A stretch of 64,000 bases of DNA from Nitrospirota bacterium (GTDB lineage Bacteria; Nitrospirota; Thermodesulfovibrionia; Thermodesulfovibrionales; SM23-35), in NCBI GenBank assembly GCA_013388455.1, contig JACAFF010000030.1, forward strand, positions 1 through 64,000. The letters are read 5' to 3'. Positions 23,087-30,219 of this stretch are shown here, in pieces. A program made the translations under genes and the position numbers. The notes beneath the pieces are model-generated. The model had not been told where the DNA came from. It did not search any database and was given only the letters and a program-made list of their open reading frames with translations. Numbering within the stretch: position 1 is the stretch's first letter; each line of letters opens with the position of its first letter.

Positions 23087-23937
23087 AGAAACTCACCTGG
23101 CATTATAGTAATTACAGTCAGGCCAATGCCAGCAAATATATCCACTACATAATGATACCTACAATATACGGTAGAAAATATAAGTAAAGAGACAAAAGGG
23201 ATTAACAACCAGAATAATCTTCTTGAAAACTTAAAGGCGAGGTATGCAACTAAGAGGGCTATACCTGTATGCCCACTTGGAAAAGCATCTCTTTTTATTC
23301 CCTCGAGACGGTTTAATAGATTCTGGATTGGTTCTGCAACAATGAACCCCTCAAGTTCATAGTTCTGAAGATGGTCTATCGTGAATCTAGGGCCGAGTGC
23401 AGGGAAAAGAATGTAACCAAGATATGAGAGATAAAAACATAAGAGAATCAAAAACAACGATTTTTCAAATGCTTCTTTTTGTTTATTCTTCAGGAGAACT
23501 ATCCCCAGGCTTATCGGCATAAAATAATAAGTTGAATATGCTATCTGGAGAATGTCTGTCAGAACAGGATGCATAATATTTTCGAGTATAACAGTTGGGT
23601 GTGCATTGAATATAAGATAATCAAGATAAATCAGAAATGGATCAATATCATCAGGATTTACATAATGTACGACCCATTCAAGACTGTCAAAGATTGAAAG
23701 GACACAGACGACAGGAAAAATTATGTTATAAAAGAGTTGCGGAAATTTCCATTTGTCTTTTATCTTAATGAGAAAAATCTGGGCAAAGATAAGAGATGAA
23801 TAGAGGCTGATCAGAAATGGTGCTCTTGGTAAATTTTTATAGTAAATTAGACACAGGATGATAAGGAATAACAGGAATATGATTGTTAGAACATCTGCAG
23901 GACGATTTTTTATAAATATATCCGTTAGTCTCCTCAT
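23032..23937 (-). CDS. PAP2-family membrane phosphatase
   Basis: A 301-residue membrane protein with six or more helices. The acid-phosphatase signature is split in the usual way: KRDAFPSGHTGIALL (P-S-G-H motif) and YCRYHYVVDIFAGI (the late R-x(3)-H-x(3)-D motif). An N-terminal K-x(6)-RP-like motif is not obvious. Family members dephosphorylate lipid phosphates such as undecaprenyl pyrophosphate, phosphatidate or inositol lipids, with the active site on the outer face. It overlaps the NYN gene by one base upstream and the convergent membrane protein gene at its 3' end. Confidence 0.88.
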   Translation of the reverse strand: MRRLTDIFIKNRPADVLTIIFLLFLIILCLIYYKNLPRAPFLISLYSSLIFAQIFLIKIKDKWKFPQLFYNIIFPVVCVLSIFDSLEWVVHYVNPDDIDPFLIYLDYLIFNAHPTVILENIMHPVLTDILQIAYSTYYFMPISLGIVLLKNKQKEAFEKSLFLILLCFYLSYLGYILFPALGPRFTIDHLQNYELEGFIVAEPIQNLLNRLEGIKRDAFPSGHTGIALLVAYLAFKFSRRLFWLLIPFVSLLIFSTVYCRYHYVVDIFAGIGLTVITIMPGEFLYDLWTKSERLAKLSAPS

Positions 23938-24425
23938 TAAAGCTTGCTTAGTGCCTTGCTGATAGCCCTATCTTTTTTCGAAAGTCTTTTTGGATTACCC
24001 TTCCTTGAAATTTCAGGCCAATCTTCTTTATCTTCATCTTCTTCGGGATTAGAAAAAGATTTTCTTTGAAGAATATTCAGAAAATCTTCTGCACGCAGAG
24101 GAATAGAACCTGATGACCATGCATGATGCGCGATATCCCTGTCTGATGTTATGACGATCCACTGCCGTCTTTCTGAAGAAATAATTCTTTTTATAACAGA
24201 ATCAGCAGTGTCTCCAATCCTTGAATAGATAACCTTTATACCACCAATAATGGATTTCATTTCCTGTCCTTGTCCTGTCTTCCATCCATCAAAAACAATT
24301 GTAATATCATGCCCTTTTCTCTTCTTGTATTCTATGAGGGAATCTATGAATATTTCCCGCTGTTTTTTTAGGTCTTTATGGAAAATTCCAATTACATTGT
24401 AACCATCTATGATTATATGCGAAAT
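23937..24425 (-). CDS. NYN-domain (YacP-like) RNA nuclease, ATT start codon
   Basis: A PIN-like NYN domain protein of 162 residues. Acidic active-site motifs are spread over the whole frame: SHIIIDGYNVIG at the very start, ITIVFDGWKTG, and VITSDRDIAHHAW. The first ATG in this frame is at 24260 and would delete the first two of these motifs, so it cannot be the true start. The frame from 24425 begins with ATT placed seven bases after a perfect GGAGG; no ATG, GTG or TTG occurs in frame between the stop of TraB and this point. YacP-type proteins are ribosome-linked endoribonucleases in Bacillus. Basic tail (RKGNPKRLSKKDR). Follows the TraB gene by 17 bases. Confidence 0.85.
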   Translation of the reverse strand: MSHIIIDGYNVIGIFHKDLKKQREIFIDSLIEYKKRKGHDITIVFDGWKTGQGQEMKSIIGGIKVIYSRIGDTADSVIKRIISSERRQWIVITSDRDIAHHAWSSGSIPLRAEDFLNILQRKSFSNPEEDEDKEDWPEISRKGNPKRLSKKDRAISKALSKL

Positions 24426-24442
24426 GGTATAACCTCCACGAT

Positions 24443-25369
24443 TTATAACTGCAGTAAAGGGTATCCTTTTTCTCTGAGCATCTCGATAATTCCTTTTTTA
24501 CCTATGAGATGCCCGGCACCAACTACAACAAAATGAATTTCATTGGTTCTTAAAAATTCTTCTATTTTAGATGTGATGTTGCGGTTTCTTTCATAGATTA
24601 GTTTTTCATATATAGAAGACATTTTTCTGTCTTGCCACAGGGCTTTTGTAATAATAGTCTCTGTTGTTTTTATATCACCATTTGTCCATGCACTTAACAG
24701 CCTATCAGCATCCCTTTCAAGGAAATCTATATCTTTTAATGTATACAACAAGAATGTTTCCTGTTCCTGATCAGTAAAGTTAGACAGAAGATTTATTTGA
24801 TATTCTATACTTTCCAGTTCTTTTATCTTTTTATTGCCTTTAGCTTTTGAGAGAAAATGGATGTCGATACCTAAAGTTGGGTCGAAACCCAGTTGTATAA
24901 GTTTCAGGGAAGTTAATGTCAATGCCAGAAACCATGGTTTCTGTTTATTAACCAATAAGAGAGGAATACCCGAGAGTTCTAACTCCTTTCTGATGAGCTC
25001 ATAAGTCTCTTTTGATACATGATTTTCAAGTGTTTCATTCCCAGGATAGATAGCAGTTTCAATGACCTTTTGAAAGTCAATCTTAGTTAAATCATTAATA
25101 TTTGCCTCTACAGCTAATACATCAGATGATTCAAAGGCACGTTCAATTTTTTTGTTTAGAGGGTATGCCTCTTTTTTCATAAAGTGAATGGAACCGAGTA
25201 TGTAGACAGTATTTGTTTTTGATTGAACTTTCCATAAAAAGGTTTTCTGATTATCTGCAAAGGATTCTTTAATAATGACCGCTGTTGAGAAAAAAAGCAG
25301 GATGAAAAATATTGTAATATTTTTTTTAAGATATCTACTAATTATTCCTTTATGAATATTTACAGACAA
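24443..25369 (-). CDS. TraB/GumN family (Tiki-like) protein
   Basis: A 308-residue protein with an N-terminal membrane anchor or signal (ITIFFILLFFSTAVIIKESFA) and then the TraB/GumN fold: FLWKVQSKTNTVYILGSIHF, EANINDL near residue 100, and VVVGAGHLIGKKG at the end. The two G-x-x-H motifs (GSIH, GAGH) and the early Glu are the metal-site residues of the Tiki/TraB clan, some of which are metalloproteases. The mature part is probably outside the cytoplasmic membrane. It starts 49 bases after the peptidase-GNAT gene and could be co-transcribed with the RiPP-like operon, but a link in function is not shown. Confidence 0.85.
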   Translation of the reverse strand: MSVNIHKGIISRYLKKNITIFFILLFFSTAVIIKESFADNQKTFLWKVQSKTNTVYILGSIHFMKKEAYPLNKKIERAFESSDVLAVEANINDLTKIDFQKVIETAIYPGNETLENHVSKETYELIRKELELSGIPLLLVNKQKPWFLALTLTSLKLIQLGFDPTLGIDIHFLSKAKGNKKIKELESIEYQINLLSNFTDQEQETFLLYTLKDIDFLERDADRLLSAWTNGDIKTTETIITKALWQDRKMSSIYEKLIYERNRNITSKIEEFLRTNEIHFVVVGAGHLIGKKGIIEMLREKGYPLLQL

Positions 25370-25418: not shown

Positions 25419-26417
25419 CTAATCTTCTATAAAACTTCTTGACATTATAATTCGGTGGCTATGTCCATGATGAGCTTCTTTTTCTAATTGTTCATCTAAT
25501 GCAGGAATCGAAATCTTTTTGAATCCCATTTTTTTATATAGGTTTATCGCAATATGATTTGTTTTAAAAACAAGAAGATTTACTTTATTTGCATTTACTT
25601 CAAACGCTTTATTGATAGCCATATGGAGAAGATTCTTTCCGATCCCTGCACCTCGATAGGGTATTCTTACCTCCATTCCAAAAAGCCACCAATCAGGATA
25701 AAGCAGGTTACCTTCATCAAACTTTAAAAGAGCTACAGAACCTACTTTTTTCTGTCCAATATATGCACAAATCTCGTAGTTGTAAATCATACTACTTTTA
25801 GATGCCATTTCAGATAAGCTGAAAGATTCTTTTAGCTTATTATCTAACAAAGCCAGGTCATCCACGATAACAAGATAATTAACTTTTTTACCTATCAATA
25901 TTTGTGCAAGTTTACGGTATAAACTAAAACTCTGAAAGAAACGAAAAATAAGAGATAAAAATTTTTTGAAAGTAAATACAAAATAAAGGCAGGAAGAACC
26001 TATTGGATATGTAATAAGCCATATGTGGGCTAAAAATTTGGAACCCCCTTTTTGTAAGTCTACAACATTCGAAGTCCGCCGTTGTTTGATAGCTTTTCCT
26101 ATGACCTGAGTGGTTGCGATATATTCTGGTGATCCAATTAGAGCATCTCCCCGTACTTTTAAGATTTCTGTATTACCGACTTTGGTTTTCCCGATAACAC
26201 GATGAACAACAACCCCATCATCGAGAGATTTGTAGAGGATAATGTCTCCTGATTTGAGTTCATTAGTACTGACAGGACCAACGGTAAGAATATCTCCATC
26301 ATGAATGAATGGATACATGCTCCAGCCATGGGCTTTAAAACTGAAAGAGCCACCCCGTCCTATAATTTCCTCAGTTAATACTCCCAGCTCATCTCTGTCA
26401 AGCCCTATTTCACGCAT
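25419..26417 (-). CDS. Signal-peptidase-like (S24/S26) domain fused to a GNAT acetyltransferase
   Basis: A 332-residue two-domain protein. Residues about 15-100 carry a serine peptidase core: FKAHGWSMYPFIHDGDIL with the nucleophile in the S-M-x-P motif, SGDIILYKS, and GVVVHRVIG, where His replaces the usual Lys as in SipW/ER-type signal peptidases. A hydrophobic stretch (about 130-160) may anchor it. Residues about 180-325 form a GNAT domain with the acetyl-CoA loop RGAGIGKNLL and INLYKKMGFKKI. The fusion sits last in a RiPP-like operon and overlaps the kinase-like gene by 13 bases. Leader removal followed by N-acetylation of the product is an attractive but untested role. Confidence 0.85.
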   Translation of the reverse strand: MREIGLDRDELGVLTEEIIGRGGSFSFKAHGWSMYPFIHDGDILTVGPVSTNELKSGDIILYKSLDDGVVVHRVIGKTKVGNTEILKVRGDALIGSPEYIATTQVIGKAIKQRRTSNVVDLQKGGSKFLAHIWLITYPIGSSCLYFVFTFKKFLSLIFRFFQSFSLYRKLAQILIGKKVNYLVIVDDLALLDNKLKESFSLSEMASKSSMIYNYEICAYIGQKKVGSVALLKFDEGNLLYPDWWLFGMEVRIPYRGAGIGKNLLHMAINKAFEVNANKVNLLVFKTNHIAINLYKKMGFKKISIPALDEQLEKEAHHGHSHRIIMSRSFIED

Positions 26418-27247
26418 CTTATGAAATCAATAATGCTTTTGTCTGGTATAAAACCTAATTCATAGCATCGTATAGTTTCAACAAGTTTAGCACAGAAATC
26501 AAGTGTAAATTGCATTCCATCAGATTCCCAATATGGAAGAAAACAGTGGGTTAAAAGCCTCAATGTAGCTGAAGAACCTTCCATCGGTGAAATATTATTT
26601 ATCTCTGCGTGATGTAAAAAAAAGATTTTATTTAGTGGCACACCATGAGGCGAAATTCCTTCATATTCTCCATGCCAGGGTGTCCCATATACCCATATAC
26701 GGCCTTCATTTTGCCGTAAAACAATGCGTTCGTCATTCAAAACAACCGCTTTATCTTCCCACAAACGTGCCATTGTAGTCTTTCCATTTGTTGAACTTCC
26801 AGGAAAAAGATATCCATTCCCATTATCATCAATACCACAGGCATGGACAAGAACTCCATAGCCCTGAGACAAAAGAGAAATCATTAATAAATGAAAGATG
26901 GGGAAAGCAAGTGGATGTGGTAAGATATCAGGAGATTCCCTCAGAACATAGACATCGCCATTTCGATAGTTAGGTTCAAAAACAGCTAAACAATATTGAC
27001 GATTATTATTAAAAGGTTCTTTTAATACAAAAACTTTTTTTATATCGCTCTTATAAACATCCCAAAATGTACCTGAATCAAAAACTTTGTTTTCAAGCTT
27101 AAGGTTTAAAAATTTATTTGAATAGTGTCCATATACTGTTATGTCTGGTTTATCATCAGATACAAATGGCTCATCAAATGCTTTAATTTTAAATCTATCT
27201 GAAGTTACAACTCCAAAAACAAAATCTGCAACTTTTAATCTATACAT
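26405..27247 (-). CDS. HPr-kinase-like protein of a RiPP-type operon
   Basis: A 280-residue protein whose second half has the HPr kinase/phosphorylase core: GVLVHACGI, the P-loop PGSSTNGKTTMARLW (about residues 150-165), VVLNDERIVLR, and a GTPWHGE segment. The first 130 residues are divergent. True HprK partners with the PTS, of which nothing is seen here. HprK-related proteins are known from lasso-peptide and other peptide-modification clusters, where PadeK-type members phosphorylate a C-terminal Ser of the precursor. Here the adjacent 60-residue precursor also ends in Ser. It could equally be a catalytically modified scaffold. The ATG has only a weak ribosome binding site. Confidence 0.8.
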   Translation of the reverse strand: MYRLKVADFVFGVVTSDRFKIKAFDEPFVSDDKPDITVYGHYSNKFLNLKLENKVFDSGTFWDVYKSDIKKVFVLKEPFNNNRQYCLAVFEPNYRNGDVYVLRESPDILPHPLAFPIFHLLMISLLSQGYGVLVHACGIDDNGNGYLFPGSSTNGKTTMARLWEDKAVVLNDERIVLRQNEGRIWVYGTPWHGEYEGISPHGVPLNKIFFLHHAEINNISPMEGSSATLRLLTHCFLPYWESDGMQFTLDFCAKLVETIRCYELGFIPDKSIIDFIRCVK

Positions 27248-27294
27248 AAATTTATTAACTTACAAAATTTTCTGAACCAGGAGATTTACCCCAA

Positions 27295-27477
27295 TTATGA
27301 GCGCCCTTTTTGATAGCAAGCCTGAAATCCTCTTTTACAGTTCTTTTCACCCGGGCCATTTTCTCCACCCCTCTTGCAAGTTTGTAACACTGCTTCATCT
27401 GACACTAATTTAACCTGTTCTATCTGTGGTTTTACATAATTCTTTCGTTCGAAATTAAATTCGGTTTTTCCTGACAT
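27295..27477 (-). CDS. Candidate RiPP precursor peptide
   Basis: A 60-residue peptide with the best ribosome binding site in the operon, AAAGGAGGTGAAAAAATT before the ATG. The N-terminal half reads as a leader: YVKPQIEQVKLVSDEAVLQ, the K-P-x-(I/V)-x-x-(V/I)-x-L-x-x-(E/D)-A-V-L pattern common in precursors recognised by PqqD-like domains. The core follows with three Cys (34, 47, 54) in two CKRG repeats separated by Gly- and Asn-rich sequence and a final CYQKGRS ending in Ser. It lies between the radical SAM and the kinase-like genes. No signal-peptide hydrophobic stretch. Precursor role is inferred from size, motif, expression signal and context. Confidence 0.8.
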   Translation of the reverse strand: MSGKTEFNFERKNYVKPQIEQVKLVSDEAVLQTCKRGGENGPGEKNCKRGFQACYQKGRS

Positions 27478-27494
27478 AATTTTTTCACCTCCTT

Positions 27495-28583
27495 TTAAAC
27501 ATTTATCAATCTAAATTTTTCTGCTCTTAAATGGGCGATATGGCATAAATAGTCAACTGGTCTTTCCGGGTCACTATTCTCAATTTGTGCCAACCCTGGA
27601 CACTGTCCGCACAATGCAATCAAGTTACAATTCCTACACAGAGTATCCTGAGAGAATTTTGTTGAAAGAACATCTGGAATAAAGCTATGCCATGCCTCTT
27701 TGAAAGAACCTCTTTGCAGGTCATAGCTTGGGACACGAGACATCATACACACACTCAATTGGCCATAAGGATCGATATGAAAGGTTTGAAGACCCGCTCC
27801 ACACTGATAAAGATAATCTGAATTAAAAGGTATCCCCAAAAACTTTCTGCAAAATTTTTGCCATTCCTCCATTCTCTTTTCGTCTGCAAAGTCAAGGGCA
27901 ACTATTTCATTAGGCGGTATGCGGAAATTGGCAGGCTTTTTATCACCATCTATCCTTAAATTTAAAACAGGGTCGAACCTGAAATCGATTCCTAAATCCT
28001 CAGCAAATTTTTTAATATCCCATATCTCATGCTTATTAATCGTCATCACCATTGTTTTAAGTTTTAAAGGTAATTTTCGTTCTATAAGCAAATCTATCCC
28101 ATCCATGCATCGTTTATGTGATCCGCTTATACCCGTAACATTTTCATAGGTCTCTTGTGTTAAACCATATAATGTAATTTCAATAGAATGAGGTGGCCAG
28201 TCTGAAAGATAGTCTGCAATATAAGGTGTTAAGAGGGTTCCATTAGTAAATAAAGTAATAAGTACCCCTTTCTTTTTTGCATATGTATAAATATCGAGAA
28301 AATCATGACGAATTAAGGGTTCACCACCTGTAATTAATAACCATAAGCAACCTTCATCCACAATCTGGTCTAAAATATTACAAATCTCTTTATAACTTAG
28401 TTCTTTATTTTTTGCTTTAATATCACTCGCGGGCAGATTAATATAACAATGAACGCATTTAAGATTACAGCGAGCAGTAATTTCTATGCTCCCATCAACG
28501 GGGATTCGTCGATTGGCTATTTTGTCAACAAGCCGATTACTGAATTCAGAGAGACTTCTTATGGGAATTACAGGACATTCCAT
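27495..28583 (-). CDS. Radical SAM/SPASM peptide-modifying enzyme
   Basis: A 362-residue protein with the radical SAM cluster motif ARCNLKCVHCYINLP (C-x3-C-x2-C, about residues 34-41), LLITGGEPLIR and LFTNGTLL, and a C-terminal SPASM domain (about 260-345) with CGAGLQTFHIDPYG, VCMMSRVP, LCRNCNLIALCGQCPG and a late Cys. SPASM domains bind extra 4Fe-4S clusters and occur in enzymes that install thioether or carbon-carbon links in peptides (PqqE, AlbA, SCIFF maturases). It begins 2 bases after the PqqD-like gene, and the candidate precursor starts 17 bases after it. The reaction on the Cys-rich core is not predictable in detail from the sequence. Confidence 0.93.
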   Translation of the reverse strand: MECPVIPIRSLSEFSNRLVDKIANRRIPVDGSIEITARCNLKCVHCYINLPASDIKAKNKELSYKEICNILDQIVDEGCLWLLITGGEPLIRHDFLDIYTYAKKKGVLITLFTNGTLLTPYIADYLSDWPPHSIEITLYGLTQETYENVTGISGSHKRCMDGIDLLIERKLPLKLKTMVMTINKHEIWDIKKFAEDLGIDFRFDPVLNLRIDGDKKPANFRIPPNEIVALDFADEKRMEEWQKFCRKFLGIPFNSDYLYQCGAGLQTFHIDPYGQLSVCMMSRVPSYDLQRGSFKEAWHSFIPDVLSTKFSQDTLCRNCNLIALCGQCPGLAQIENSDPERPVDYLCHIAHLRAEKFRLINV

Positions 28584-28585
28584 AC

Positions 28586-28894
28586 TTATAATGCCCTAAT
28601 AGCACCTATATGTTCTAATTGATTGATAAACTCGATGATATCTTTTTCCGCTACCTCAGGACTTACTTCAAATTCATTTAATATTATATCTATTATTTCT
28701 GAAAGGCTTTTTTCTCCATCAACAAGTTCCCATATACGGCTACCAACTTCGTTCATAGTATAAATGCTATCTACTTCATCAGCTCTCTTTTTTATTGGCA
28801 CTAAAATGAACTCTTCAGCGACCTTTCTGAAAACAACTGAAGAGTCTTTTGTGTAAAGTCTGTCGAGATTCGGGCCTGTATTCAATGTATTCAA
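28586..28894 (-). CDS. PqqD-like RiPP recognition element protein
   Basis: A small protein of up to 102 residues with the PqqD winged-helix fold: VVFRKVAEEFILVPI strand pair, YTMNEVGSRIWELVDG, SLSEIIDIILNEFEV and DIIEFINQLEHIGAI. PqqD proteins bind the precursor leader and present it to the radical SAM enzyme. There is no ATG; two TTG codons in a tandem nine-base repeat (28894 and 28885) are candidate starts, and an AGGA lies a few bases upstream. First gene of the RiPP-like operon behind its own promoter. Confidence 0.88.
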   Translation of the reverse strand: MNTLNTGPNLDRLYTKDSSVVFRKVAEEFILVPIKKRADEVDSIYTMNEVGSRIWELVDGEKSLSEIIDIILNEFEVSPEVAEKDIIEFINQLEHIGAIRAL

Positions 28895-28924
28895 TATTCC
28901 TGCCTTTTTAAAACTTATAAATAG

Positions 28925-28952
28925 ATTATAATTTAAAAGAGAAATTTTGCAA
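28925..28952 (-). promoter_or_regulatory. Sigma-70-type promoter for the RiPP-like operon
   Basis: On the minus strand TTGCAA is followed after 16 bases by a perfect TATAAT, ending about 30 bases before the first TTG start. It lies in the 62-base gap after the M48 gene, so the operon can be transcribed independently of it. Confidence 0.6.
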
Positions 28953-28956
28953 ATAT

Positions 28957-30219
28957 TTAACTGCTTAATTTCGGGAAATTCTCGATTTCTTTTATTCTTT
29001 GAATTACCGGTGGATGTGAATAGTAAAAAGCTGCATAGAAAGGGTGAGGATGTAGGTTTGAAAGGTTATCTATTGAAAGTTTTATAAGGGCGCTTTTAAA
29101 AGCCTCTTTGTCACCTGTGAGCTTGCATGCAAACCTGTCTGCCTCTTTTTCAAAGCGTCTTGAAAAGTAATTGCTGATTGGAAGAAAAGGAAGCGATATA
29201 ATGTTACCCATGAAACCGAGAAGAAGGACTTTTGTAAAGAAGGTCGCATTTTTAATCTGAAAAATATCTGTGAGAAAGTCAGCACTGAGAATTCTGAATG
29301 ATAGATAGATAGCTATAAATGCTAATGTCTCTGATGCAACGATCATTTTCAGAACATGTTTTTTCTTCCAGTGACCTGCTTCATGTGCCAGGATAGCAAG
29401 AATTTCATCGTGATTCATCTTTTCGAGAAGTGTATCGTAAAGTATTATTCTTTTAACTTTCCCTATACCTGTAAAATATGCATTGGTGTGACGGCTTCTT
29501 TTAGAAGCATCCATTTTAAATACGCTGCTGACCCTTATGTTTATTTTTTTCATCAAATCTTTAATTCTGTCTTCAAGCACTTTCTCTTCTATAGGAGAAA
29601 ATTTGTTGAAAAGTGGCTCTATGACATAAGGGGATATATACATAATGAATAGACTGTAAATGAGGAAAAAAATCCATAACCAGAACCACCAGATAGTCGG
29701 GCTTAATTGTATCAGCAGAAATCCTATAAAAAGGAGTATGCCAGTAATAACTGTAGAAAGTAATATGGATTTTAGAAAATCGGCAAACCATAACTTGATC
29801 GTCATGGTATTAAATCCGTATTTATTCTCAATTCTGAAAATATTATAGAGACTGAAAGGTATAGTGAGAAGAGTATTAGCATAGCTCAAGAATAGAAAGA
29901 AAAAAACACCTGATAAAATAAAACTGAAATTAAATGATGAAATCCAATCGTCATATATATTTAAAAGACCACCGAAAATAAAGATAATTGTAACTGCATT
30001 GCCGAAGATTGAAGAAATAAAACTGAATTTTGTTTTTTCAATTTCATATGCACGCATCTTCTGAACATGAGATTCATTTATTTTCCCCTTGAATACATCA
30101 GGAATGATTGAACCAAATCTTTTCATATACCCGAGATTTAAAAATTGCAGAGTATATTCAAAAGTTTCCTTCAAGATATAGATTATGAGTATGAGGTAAA
30201 TATTTTCTATAGCTATCAT
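28957..30219 (-). CDS. M48-family membrane zinc peptidase (Ste24-like)
   Basis: A 420-residue membrane protease. The zinc motif is ILAHEAGHWKKKH (about residue 275) and the third ligand Glu is in RRFEKEADRFAC. Several hydrophobic helices surround it, and the segment RHTNAYFTGIGKVKRIILYDTLL is characteristic of Ste24/CAAX-prenyl-protease type M48 members, which in bacteria act as membrane quality-control peptidases. The gene is intact. It is directly upstream of the RiPP-like operon in the same direction, so a part in peptide processing is possible, but a promoter separates them. Confidence 0.92.
   Translation of the reverse strand: MIAIENIYLILIIYILKETFEYTLQFLNLGYMKRFGSIIPDVFKGKINESHVQKMRAYEIEKTKFSFISSIFGNAVTIIFIFGGLLNIYDDWISSFNFSFILSGVFFFLFLSYANTLLTIPFSLYNIFRIENKYGFNTMTIKLWFADFLKSILLSTVITGILLFIGFLLIQLSPTIWWFWLWIFFLIYSLFIMYISPYVIEPLFNKFSPIEEKVLEDRIKDLMKKINIRVSSVFKMDASKRSRHTNAYFTGIGKVKRIILYDTLLEKMNHDEILAILAHEAGHWKKKHVLKMIVASETLAFIAIYLSFRILSADFLTDIFQIKNATFFTKVLLLGFMGNIISLPFLPISNYFSRRFEKEADRFACKLTGDKEAFKSALIKLSIDNLSNLHPHPFYAAFYYSHPPVIQRIKEIENFPKLSS

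Follow-up and report, generated by a model that had tools for sequence, protein, structure and literature searches.

Linear polyphosphorylated peptides (LPPs), described in Bacillota by Popov et al. in 2026, are ribosomally synthesized and post-translationally modified peptides (RiPPs) whose leader peptidase, LppS, depends on the RiPP recognition element (RRE), has the triad S29/H68/D93 and is, according to its authors, the first enzyme of the signal-peptidase type in RiPP maturation (PMC13381572). In paeninodin-type lasso peptides the phosphosite is the C-terminal Ser of the precursor, and all of the lasso-peptide phosphorylations reported before BsfK were on that residue (PMC10368454). Here, we describe a related cassette in a 64,000-nucleotide stretch of contig JACAFF010000030.1 from a Nitrospirota bacterium (assembly GCA_013388455.1; hereafter, the window), which encodes a PqqD-family RRE, a SPASM-domain radical S-adenosylmethionine (SAM) enzyme, a precursor peptide, an HprK-like kinase and a peptidase fused to a GNAT acetyltransferase domain (Table 1). 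Its proteins read as LPP/paeninodin-like maturation machinery with an added radical SAM step. We consider it probable that the cassette belongs to a RiPP class for which we found no name, with leader binding by the RRE, radical chemistry at Cys, phosphorylation of a C-terminal Ser/Thr and leader removal by a signal-peptidase-like enzyme.

Like the LPP system, the cassette has a discrete RRE, an HprK-like kinase, the YxxPx leader motif and an archaeal-type signal peptidase with a Ser/His/Asp triad, which in LPP biosynthesis is the RRE-dependent leader peptidase. NTP_transf_5 and an exporter, as in LPP clusters, occur in several cassette relatives, and exopolysaccharide-type genes adjoin a few of the loci (L030, L042, and L043). 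However, the cassette differs in its SPASM radical SAM enzyme and three conserved core Cys, in a conserved Ser that is C-terminal instead of Ser3, and in its distribution, since none of the loci found was from Bacillota. Additionally, the LPP leader consensus YxxPxVLxHQxIxFETxxS was not matched beyond YxxPx[ILV], and the LPP NTP transferase and MsbA-like exporter were absent from the cassette of the window. With paeninodin-type lasso peptides the cassette shares a lasso-type RRE, a YxxPxL leader, an HprK-like kinase and the predicted phosphosite, but radical SAM and signal-peptidase-like enzymes replace the lasso B2 peptidase (Transglut_core3, PF13471; no match in the whole genome) and the macrolactam synthetase (an asparagine synthetase homologue; absent from the nine genes that we scanned at the cassette and its flanks). 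The SynChlorMet system (TIGR04248 to TIGR04251) also combines PqqD-like, SPASM radical SAM and HprK-like (ScmC) proteins, but it has two radical SAM enzymes, and the window proteins scored far under its cutoffs. Sactipeptide systems (SkfB and AlbA) share the Cys-bearing core and the SPASM enzyme, which among solved structures is nearest to SkfB; a kinase, a signal-peptidase-type peptidase and a C-terminal Ser are features of the cassette and not of sactipeptides, and the thioether here is a prediction. The original prediction, made from the DNA alone, had known of no described class with this exact gene set. As far as we searched the open literature this holds, with no name for the class, no paper joining HprK, RiPP and SPASM and none on "SynChlorMet," although the prediction had overlooked LPP/paeninodin and SynChlorMet as close relatives. 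The C-terminal Ser pattern of the precursors and the association with C25 proteases, both described below, were beyond its reach.

We gathered loci by the radical SAM protein alone and then scanned them with family profiles (n = 75), searching the near genomes at an E value of ≤1e-40, then a species collection and then samples of four phyla with the radical SAM profile A1. Relatives were present in 21 of 101 near genomes, and the species collection yielded seven full-length relatives; a Myxococcales metagenome-assembled genome (MAG) also carried one. With profile A1, 22 Nitrospirota genomes scored ≥380 bits, with one contig-edge fragment at 323 bits, and a single locus, L106, stood for the Nitrospiraceae that scored below 300 bits. 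The same profile, run against genomes from the phyla of three seeds, matched 12 of 251 for the Chloroflexota seed, 22 of 247 for the Acidobacteria seed and 6 of 247 for the Desulfobacteraceae seed at E values of ≤1e-100. The PqqD gene was found in 72 of the 75 loci, the precursor and the kinase in 70 each, the peptidase in 62 and all five genes in 56, many of the gaps being contig ends. Neighboring genes were mostly on the same strand with short gaps or overlaps, and the cassette was spread over at least five phyla (Nitrospirota, Desulfobacterota, Acidobacteriota, Chloroflexota, and Myxococcota). Recurrence of the gene set far exceeds chance. As evidence that would speak against a RiPP operon, the original prediction had named SPASM-enzyme homologues lacking the Cys peptide and its companion genes; instead, the set recurred in loci picked by the radical SAM gene alone, which strongly supports the operon. 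The five minus-strand genes lie where they had been placed, with gaps of 2, 17 and 47 bases and a 13-base overlap between the last two. The TTGCAA-16-TATAAT promoter that had been proposed is also present, but nine such sites were found against 14.5 ± 4.9 expected from shuffled sequence; since such sites are no commoner here than in shuffles, the box is no evidence by itself and was dropped as evidence for the operon.

Some loci were built differently. L106 (G211) carried a related three-enzyme cassette in the order PqqD, radical SAM, radical SAM, precursor, HprK, radical SAM, NTP_transf_5, and S26, and the other positive Nitrospiraceae genomes had the same three-match radical SAM pattern as this one locus that we read. 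Taking the three tandem matches in Nitrospiraceae for heme genes was wrong, as in L106 they are part of the related cassette. At L165, L170, L172 and L173 the radical SAM enzyme and HprK-like kinase are fused into proteins of ∼650 to 680 amino acids with more radical SAM genes adjoining, and the precursors at L165 and L173 also have Ser as the last residue.

Besides the set of genes and their order, this comparison established the conserved motifs, the catalytic residues of kinase and peptidase and a C-terminal Ser/Thr rule. The 60-residue open reading frame is a real gene and not a chance one, since homologues occupy the same place in 70 of the 75 related loci. Curated models did not describe it; NCBIfam matched none of 27 precursors, and Pfam matched one member only (E = 0.13). 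The 72 complete precursors, 44 of them <60% identical, share the pattern YxxPx[ILV]...EEAVLxxC[KR], in which Y/WxxP is followed by a hydrophobic residue, EEAVL-like residues and then C[KR]. A lipoprotein reading of the lipobox-like VLxxC (L-x-x-C) was rejected because the leader is charged and without a hydrophobic stretch. The loci thus hold a small precursor with a conserved leader and a variable core beside a leader-binding domain and a modifying enzyme, as RiPP cassettes do. From the C[KR] point onward, exactly three Cys were present in 65 of 72 precursors, aromatic residues were rare in the core (4 to 5%), and the residues between the conserved Cys and the last Ser varied. The last residue was Ser in 63 precursors and Thr in 7 (70/72; 42/44 among those <60% identical). 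Ser and Thr together made up 17 to 19% of the rest of the core and only 1 to 2% at the penultimate position; thus, the preference is confined to the final residue. The precursor-finding profile was built mostly from Ser-ending members, a small bias that is unable to yield 97%. Only L034 (Phe) and L126 (Met), both from one Chloroflexota clade, lacked a C-terminal Ser/Thr.

The RRE family profile (A4) ranked the lasso RRE TbiB1 (5v1u; 4.2e-14) and 9x90/9x8z ahead of PqqD itself, and the best reading of the leader-binding protein is a lasso-type RRE. In the radical SAM family alignment, C39/C43/C46 and six SPASM Cys were invariant, and C347 was kept in ≥90%. The solved structures nearest to the radical SAM profile were the sactisynthase SkfB (6efn; 2.5e-29) and then PqqE (6c8v; 3.9e-22). 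The cassette thus pairs a SPASM enzyme that has the full Cys set with a Cys-bearing precursor core, as in sactipeptides and ranthipeptides. The enzyme most likely makes Cys thioether bridges of the sactionine/ranthionine type, thioethers being the likeliest product because of the three core Cys and few aromatics, and its presence argues against a plain linear, LPP-like product.

The kinase-like protein had only weak profile matches (ScmC at 2e-7 and HprK_rel_A/B). However, its AlphaFold model (mean predicted local distance difference test, 95) has the PEPCK/HprK fold, with Foldseek E values of ∼3e-6 to 1e-5 and a VIA-align Z score of 13 over 232 aligned residues at 5.0 Å, and together these uphold the HprK-like assignment made earlier. 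His135, the P-loop Gly/Lys and Thr158 were kept in 70 of 70 kinases and the Asp at position 172 in 67; His, P-loop and Asp/(Asp,Glu)/Arg are the same residue kinds listed for the lasso kinases (PMC10368454). In L034, L126 and L128, Glu replaces Asp172 and Arg174 is lost ([LS]DDR to GED[QT]), and these loci form one supported Chloroflexota clade (100/99). Altered kinase motif and lost C-terminal Ser/Thr thus occur in the same clade, which indicates that the C-terminal hydroxyl of the precursor is probably the kinase target.

The peptidase residues Ser33, His72 and Asp91 were invariant in 21 peptidases (alignment A5) and correspond to S29/H68/D93 of LppS, with a Ser-His spacing of 39 in both. 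The C-terminal fusions varied, with GNAT in the window and L030, a methyltransferase-like domain in L037 and NTP_transf_5 in L104, which may represent exchangeable tailoring at the cleavage site. Leader binding, action of the SPASM enzyme on the core, a kinase step and S24/S26-type leader removal had all been foreseen by the original prediction and fit our evidence, the last with an experimental precedent in LppS (PMC13381572). Its N-acetylation step fared less well: the GNAT domain of the window possibly acetylates the peptide N terminus, but this is no general feature, as most relatives have a peptidase without GNAT.

In the pathway that we propose, the lasso-type RRE would bind the YxxPx[ILV] leader and present the precursor to the SPASM radical SAM enzyme, which would act on the Cys-bearing core to make Cys thioether bridges. 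The HprK/PEPCK-fold kinase would then phosphorylate the C-terminal Ser/Thr in the manner of the paeninodin-type lasso kinases, and the RRE-guided Ser/His/Asp signal-peptidase-I-like enzyme would, like LppS, cut the leader near ...EEAVLxx|CK. In the window the fused GNAT domain would finally acetylate the freed N terminus, where other members have a methyltransferase-like or NTP_transf_5 domain. Several points weigh against this proposal. We infer every chemical step, the step order and the cleavage site, and the chemistry is predicted from sequence. The similarity to SkfB is mostly within the radical SAM core and leaves the product unfixed, so that epimerization, C-C or other bonds may be made instead, and the acceptor residues in the core are not constant, which prevents a ring pattern from being assigned. 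The match between Asp loss and Ser loss is one clade and thus a single evolutionary event, and L128, of the same clade and with the altered kinase motif, still ends in Thr. Since kinases of this type (BsfK and LppK) can also act on Ser3, the kinase family does not fix the phosphosite. Finally, the cassette of the window lacks an exporter, and the structure model of the S26-GNAT protein is good in the peptidase half only, its GNAT part being poor.

Among the other explanations, we weighed an LPP-type linear phosphopeptide, with phosphorylation as the primary change and a recruited radical SAM enzyme as secondary. It would account for the RRE, the HprK-like kinase, the archaeal-type signal peptidase, the YxxP leader, and the NTP_transf_5 and exporter genes of relatives, but the leaders are missing the HQxIxFET stretch of LPPs, and the precursors conserve a C-terminal hydroxyl and not one at core Ser3. 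Fixed features, moreover, include three Cys in the core and the radical SAM gene itself, although our choice of loci through that gene means that LPP-like clusters without it would have escaped us; overall, we regard this explanation as unlikely. A similar degree of doubt attaches to the HprK-like protein being a regulator or phosphorylating a protein other than the precursor. HprK proper phosphorylates HPr, and curated HprK-related models match the sequence weakly; against this, the kinase gene comes directly after that of the precursor, and exceptions to the C-terminal Ser/Thr rule are confined to the clade with the altered kinase motif.

A distant SynChlorMet cassette (ScmC/D/E/F, named by NCBI models) has the same kinds of parts, and ScmC was the best match of the kinase-like protein. 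However, the scores were 30.6 bits against a cutoff of 125 for ScmC, 34.3 against 100 for ScmD, 85 against 400 for ScmE and 75.5 against 400 for ScmF, and the window has one radical SAM enzyme and not two. At L102 (556-4646) a genuine SynChlorMet cassette, with ScmC, D, E and F above the cutoffs, adjoins a cassette of the present class as a separate unit. It has its own signal-peptidase-like gene, a likeness to the window that suggests that SynChlorMet also uses a leader peptidase of this type. Membership, which we rate as quite improbable, is refuted by the cutoffs, while kinship as sister systems, judged from the sequences, stands. A PqqD-like protein with a SPASM enzyme is also the arrangement of pyrroloquinoline quinone (PQQ) and mycofactocin. 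The peptide might accordingly be processed into a small cofactor, in the way that PqqA gives rise to PQQ and MftA to mycofactocin, instead of yielding a peptide product, and the patchy distribution is compatible with this. We find it very improbable, as no other cofactor-maturation genes recur at the loci, the RRE is closer to lasso RREs than to PqqD, and the core is variable, unlike cofactor precursors. The reading that we prefer is still the class with Cys-directed radical chemistry, C-terminal phosphorylation and signal-peptidase-like leader removal.

Table 1. Cassette, flanking genes and sequence features in the window
Feature	Position	Strand	Basis
M48 protease (CAAX-type), flank outside the cassette, one side of the insertion slot	28957..30219	-	
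Promoter-like TTGCAA-16-TATAAT, upstream of the operon	28925..28952	-	not above chance expectation
PqqD-family discrete RRE, leader-binding protein, 102 aa	28586..28894	-	PF05402, 2.5e-18 (Pfam)
SPASM-domain radical SAM enzyme, 362 aa	27495..28583	-	Radical_SAM 1.1e-19, SPASM 3.7e-4
Radical SAM CxxxCxxC, C39/C43/C46; SPASM Cys C261, C279, C316, C319, C325, C328, C347	within 27495..28583	-	
Strong Shine-Dalgarno of the precursor, AAGGAGGTGA	27485..27494	-	sequence
Precursor peptide, 60 aa, MSGKTEFNFERKNYVKPQIEQVKLVSDEAVLQTCKRGGENGPGEKNCKRGFQACYQKGRS	27295..27477	-	homologues in 70/75 loci
YVKPQI, leader motif YxxPx[ILV] for RRE binding	27421..27438	-	family conservation; motif common to lasso and LPP leaders (PMC10368454, PMC13381572)
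Presumed core from Cys34, CKRGGENGPGEKNCKRGFQACYQKGRS, with Cys34, Cys47, Cys54, C-terminal Ser60 (27298-27300)	27298..27378	-	cleavage site inferred
HprK/PEPCK-fold kinase, 280 aa	26405..27247	-	weak profile matches and AlphaFold model
Kinase residues His135, P-loop Gly150-Thr158, Asp172/Glu173/Arg174	within 26405..27247	-	
Peptidase-GNAT fusion gene	25419..26417	-	TIGR02228 and PF00583 matches
Archaeal-type signal-peptidase-I-like N-terminal domain, Ser33/His72/Asp91	26004..26417	-	TIGR02228, 59.5 bits, above cutoff
Fused C-terminal GNAT acetyltransferase domain	25509..25805	-	PF00583, 6.1e-14; GNAT structural neighbors, low-confidence model
TraB/GumN-family protein, flank outside the cassette, other side of the slot	24443..25369	-	

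Unexpectedly, a gene for a Peptidase C25 (gingipain-type) protein was found in 32 of the 75 loci. At 13 of these it just overlaps the PqqD gene or lies no more than 30 bases upstream of it, and at some others it is downstream of the cassette. Across the 101 genomes, strong C25 matches occurred in 14 of 21 cassette carriers versus 0 of 80 other related genomes, with one weak match (G021; Fisher P = 2e-12, uncorrected for kinship), and in 13 of the 14 carriers the gene adjoins the cassette. The C25 labels cluster on the radical SAM tree, yet they need at least eight changes, and the catalytic His and Cys were invariant in 33 domains. The C25 proteins at the start or end of the cassette are giant and secreted-looking, some with LTD or G8 domains (L029, L040, L042-L046, L049, L051-L054, L056, L129-L133, and others). 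NTP_transf_5 was found in 18 of the 75 loci and together with C25 in just 2; this domain and the MsbA-like exporter complete the core set of LPP clusters, and several relatives carry them (one or both in L050, L101, L102, and others). The window has neither C25 nor NTP_transf_5, and no C25 gene was found in its own genome. The NTP_transf_5 gene of that genome (contig C32) was rejected as the missing partner, as its neighbors are exopolysaccharide-type glycosyltransferase genes and include no RRE, kinase or precursor. Tentatively, and with somewhat less than even confidence in the whole, we propose that a widespread, undescribed RiPP class of radical-SAM-bridged, C-terminally phosphorylated three-Cys peptides spans at least five phyla, that a signal-peptidase-like enzyme releases them, and that in a large branch the peptide would work with the giant C25 protease of its own operon as the inhibitor, regulator, substrate or cargo of that protease. 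A defense system was rejected, PADLOC having returned nothing but generic viperin-type radical SAM matches.

In the family of the window the cassette adjoins the M48 gene, but occupancy of this slot varies. In G002, G007, G011 (and G018) a cassette with C25 lies between M48 and TraB in the orientation opposite to that of the window; in G006 (L196) the site is empty, with M48 followed directly by a YacP-like gene after a 33-base gap; and in G014 (L192:3954-4256) only an orphan PqqD-like gene, probably a decayed cassette, is beside M48. The window radical SAM enzyme is 63% identical to that of L030 and ∼41% identical to those of its own family, and it groups in a five-row clade (100/99) with other families and phyla and not with its own family. 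Because of this placement and the varied occupancy of the M48 slot, the cassette has probably been exchanged horizontally at one slot. The window also encodes a 107-amino-acid YacP-like NYN-domain protein (23937-24260) whose Pfam match covers just the latter half of the model (positions 65-157 of 166); G006 and G014 have longer relatives of it.

The host genome (2.1 Mb; 99.4% complete) has dsrA (584.9 bits versus a cutoff of 392.85) and shares gene order with a Nitrospirae MAG, in which L030 and G051 are one and the same contig. The host is thus likely a Thermodesulfovibrio-like Nitrospirota sulfur/sulfate metabolizer, and calling it a sulfate reducer was reasonable, at least in the wider sense of a dissimilatory sulfur metabolizer. 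Overall, the cassette unites two RiPP logics kept apart so far, radical SAM/SPASM chemistry and the LPP/paeninodin route of kinase and signal peptidase, in organisms with few known natural products. The C-terminal Ser/Thr rule and its natural kinase exception provide a sharp and cheap test, and the tight link between C25 and the cassette is a first lead to the function of phosphorylated RiPPs, which the LPP authors stated to be unknown.

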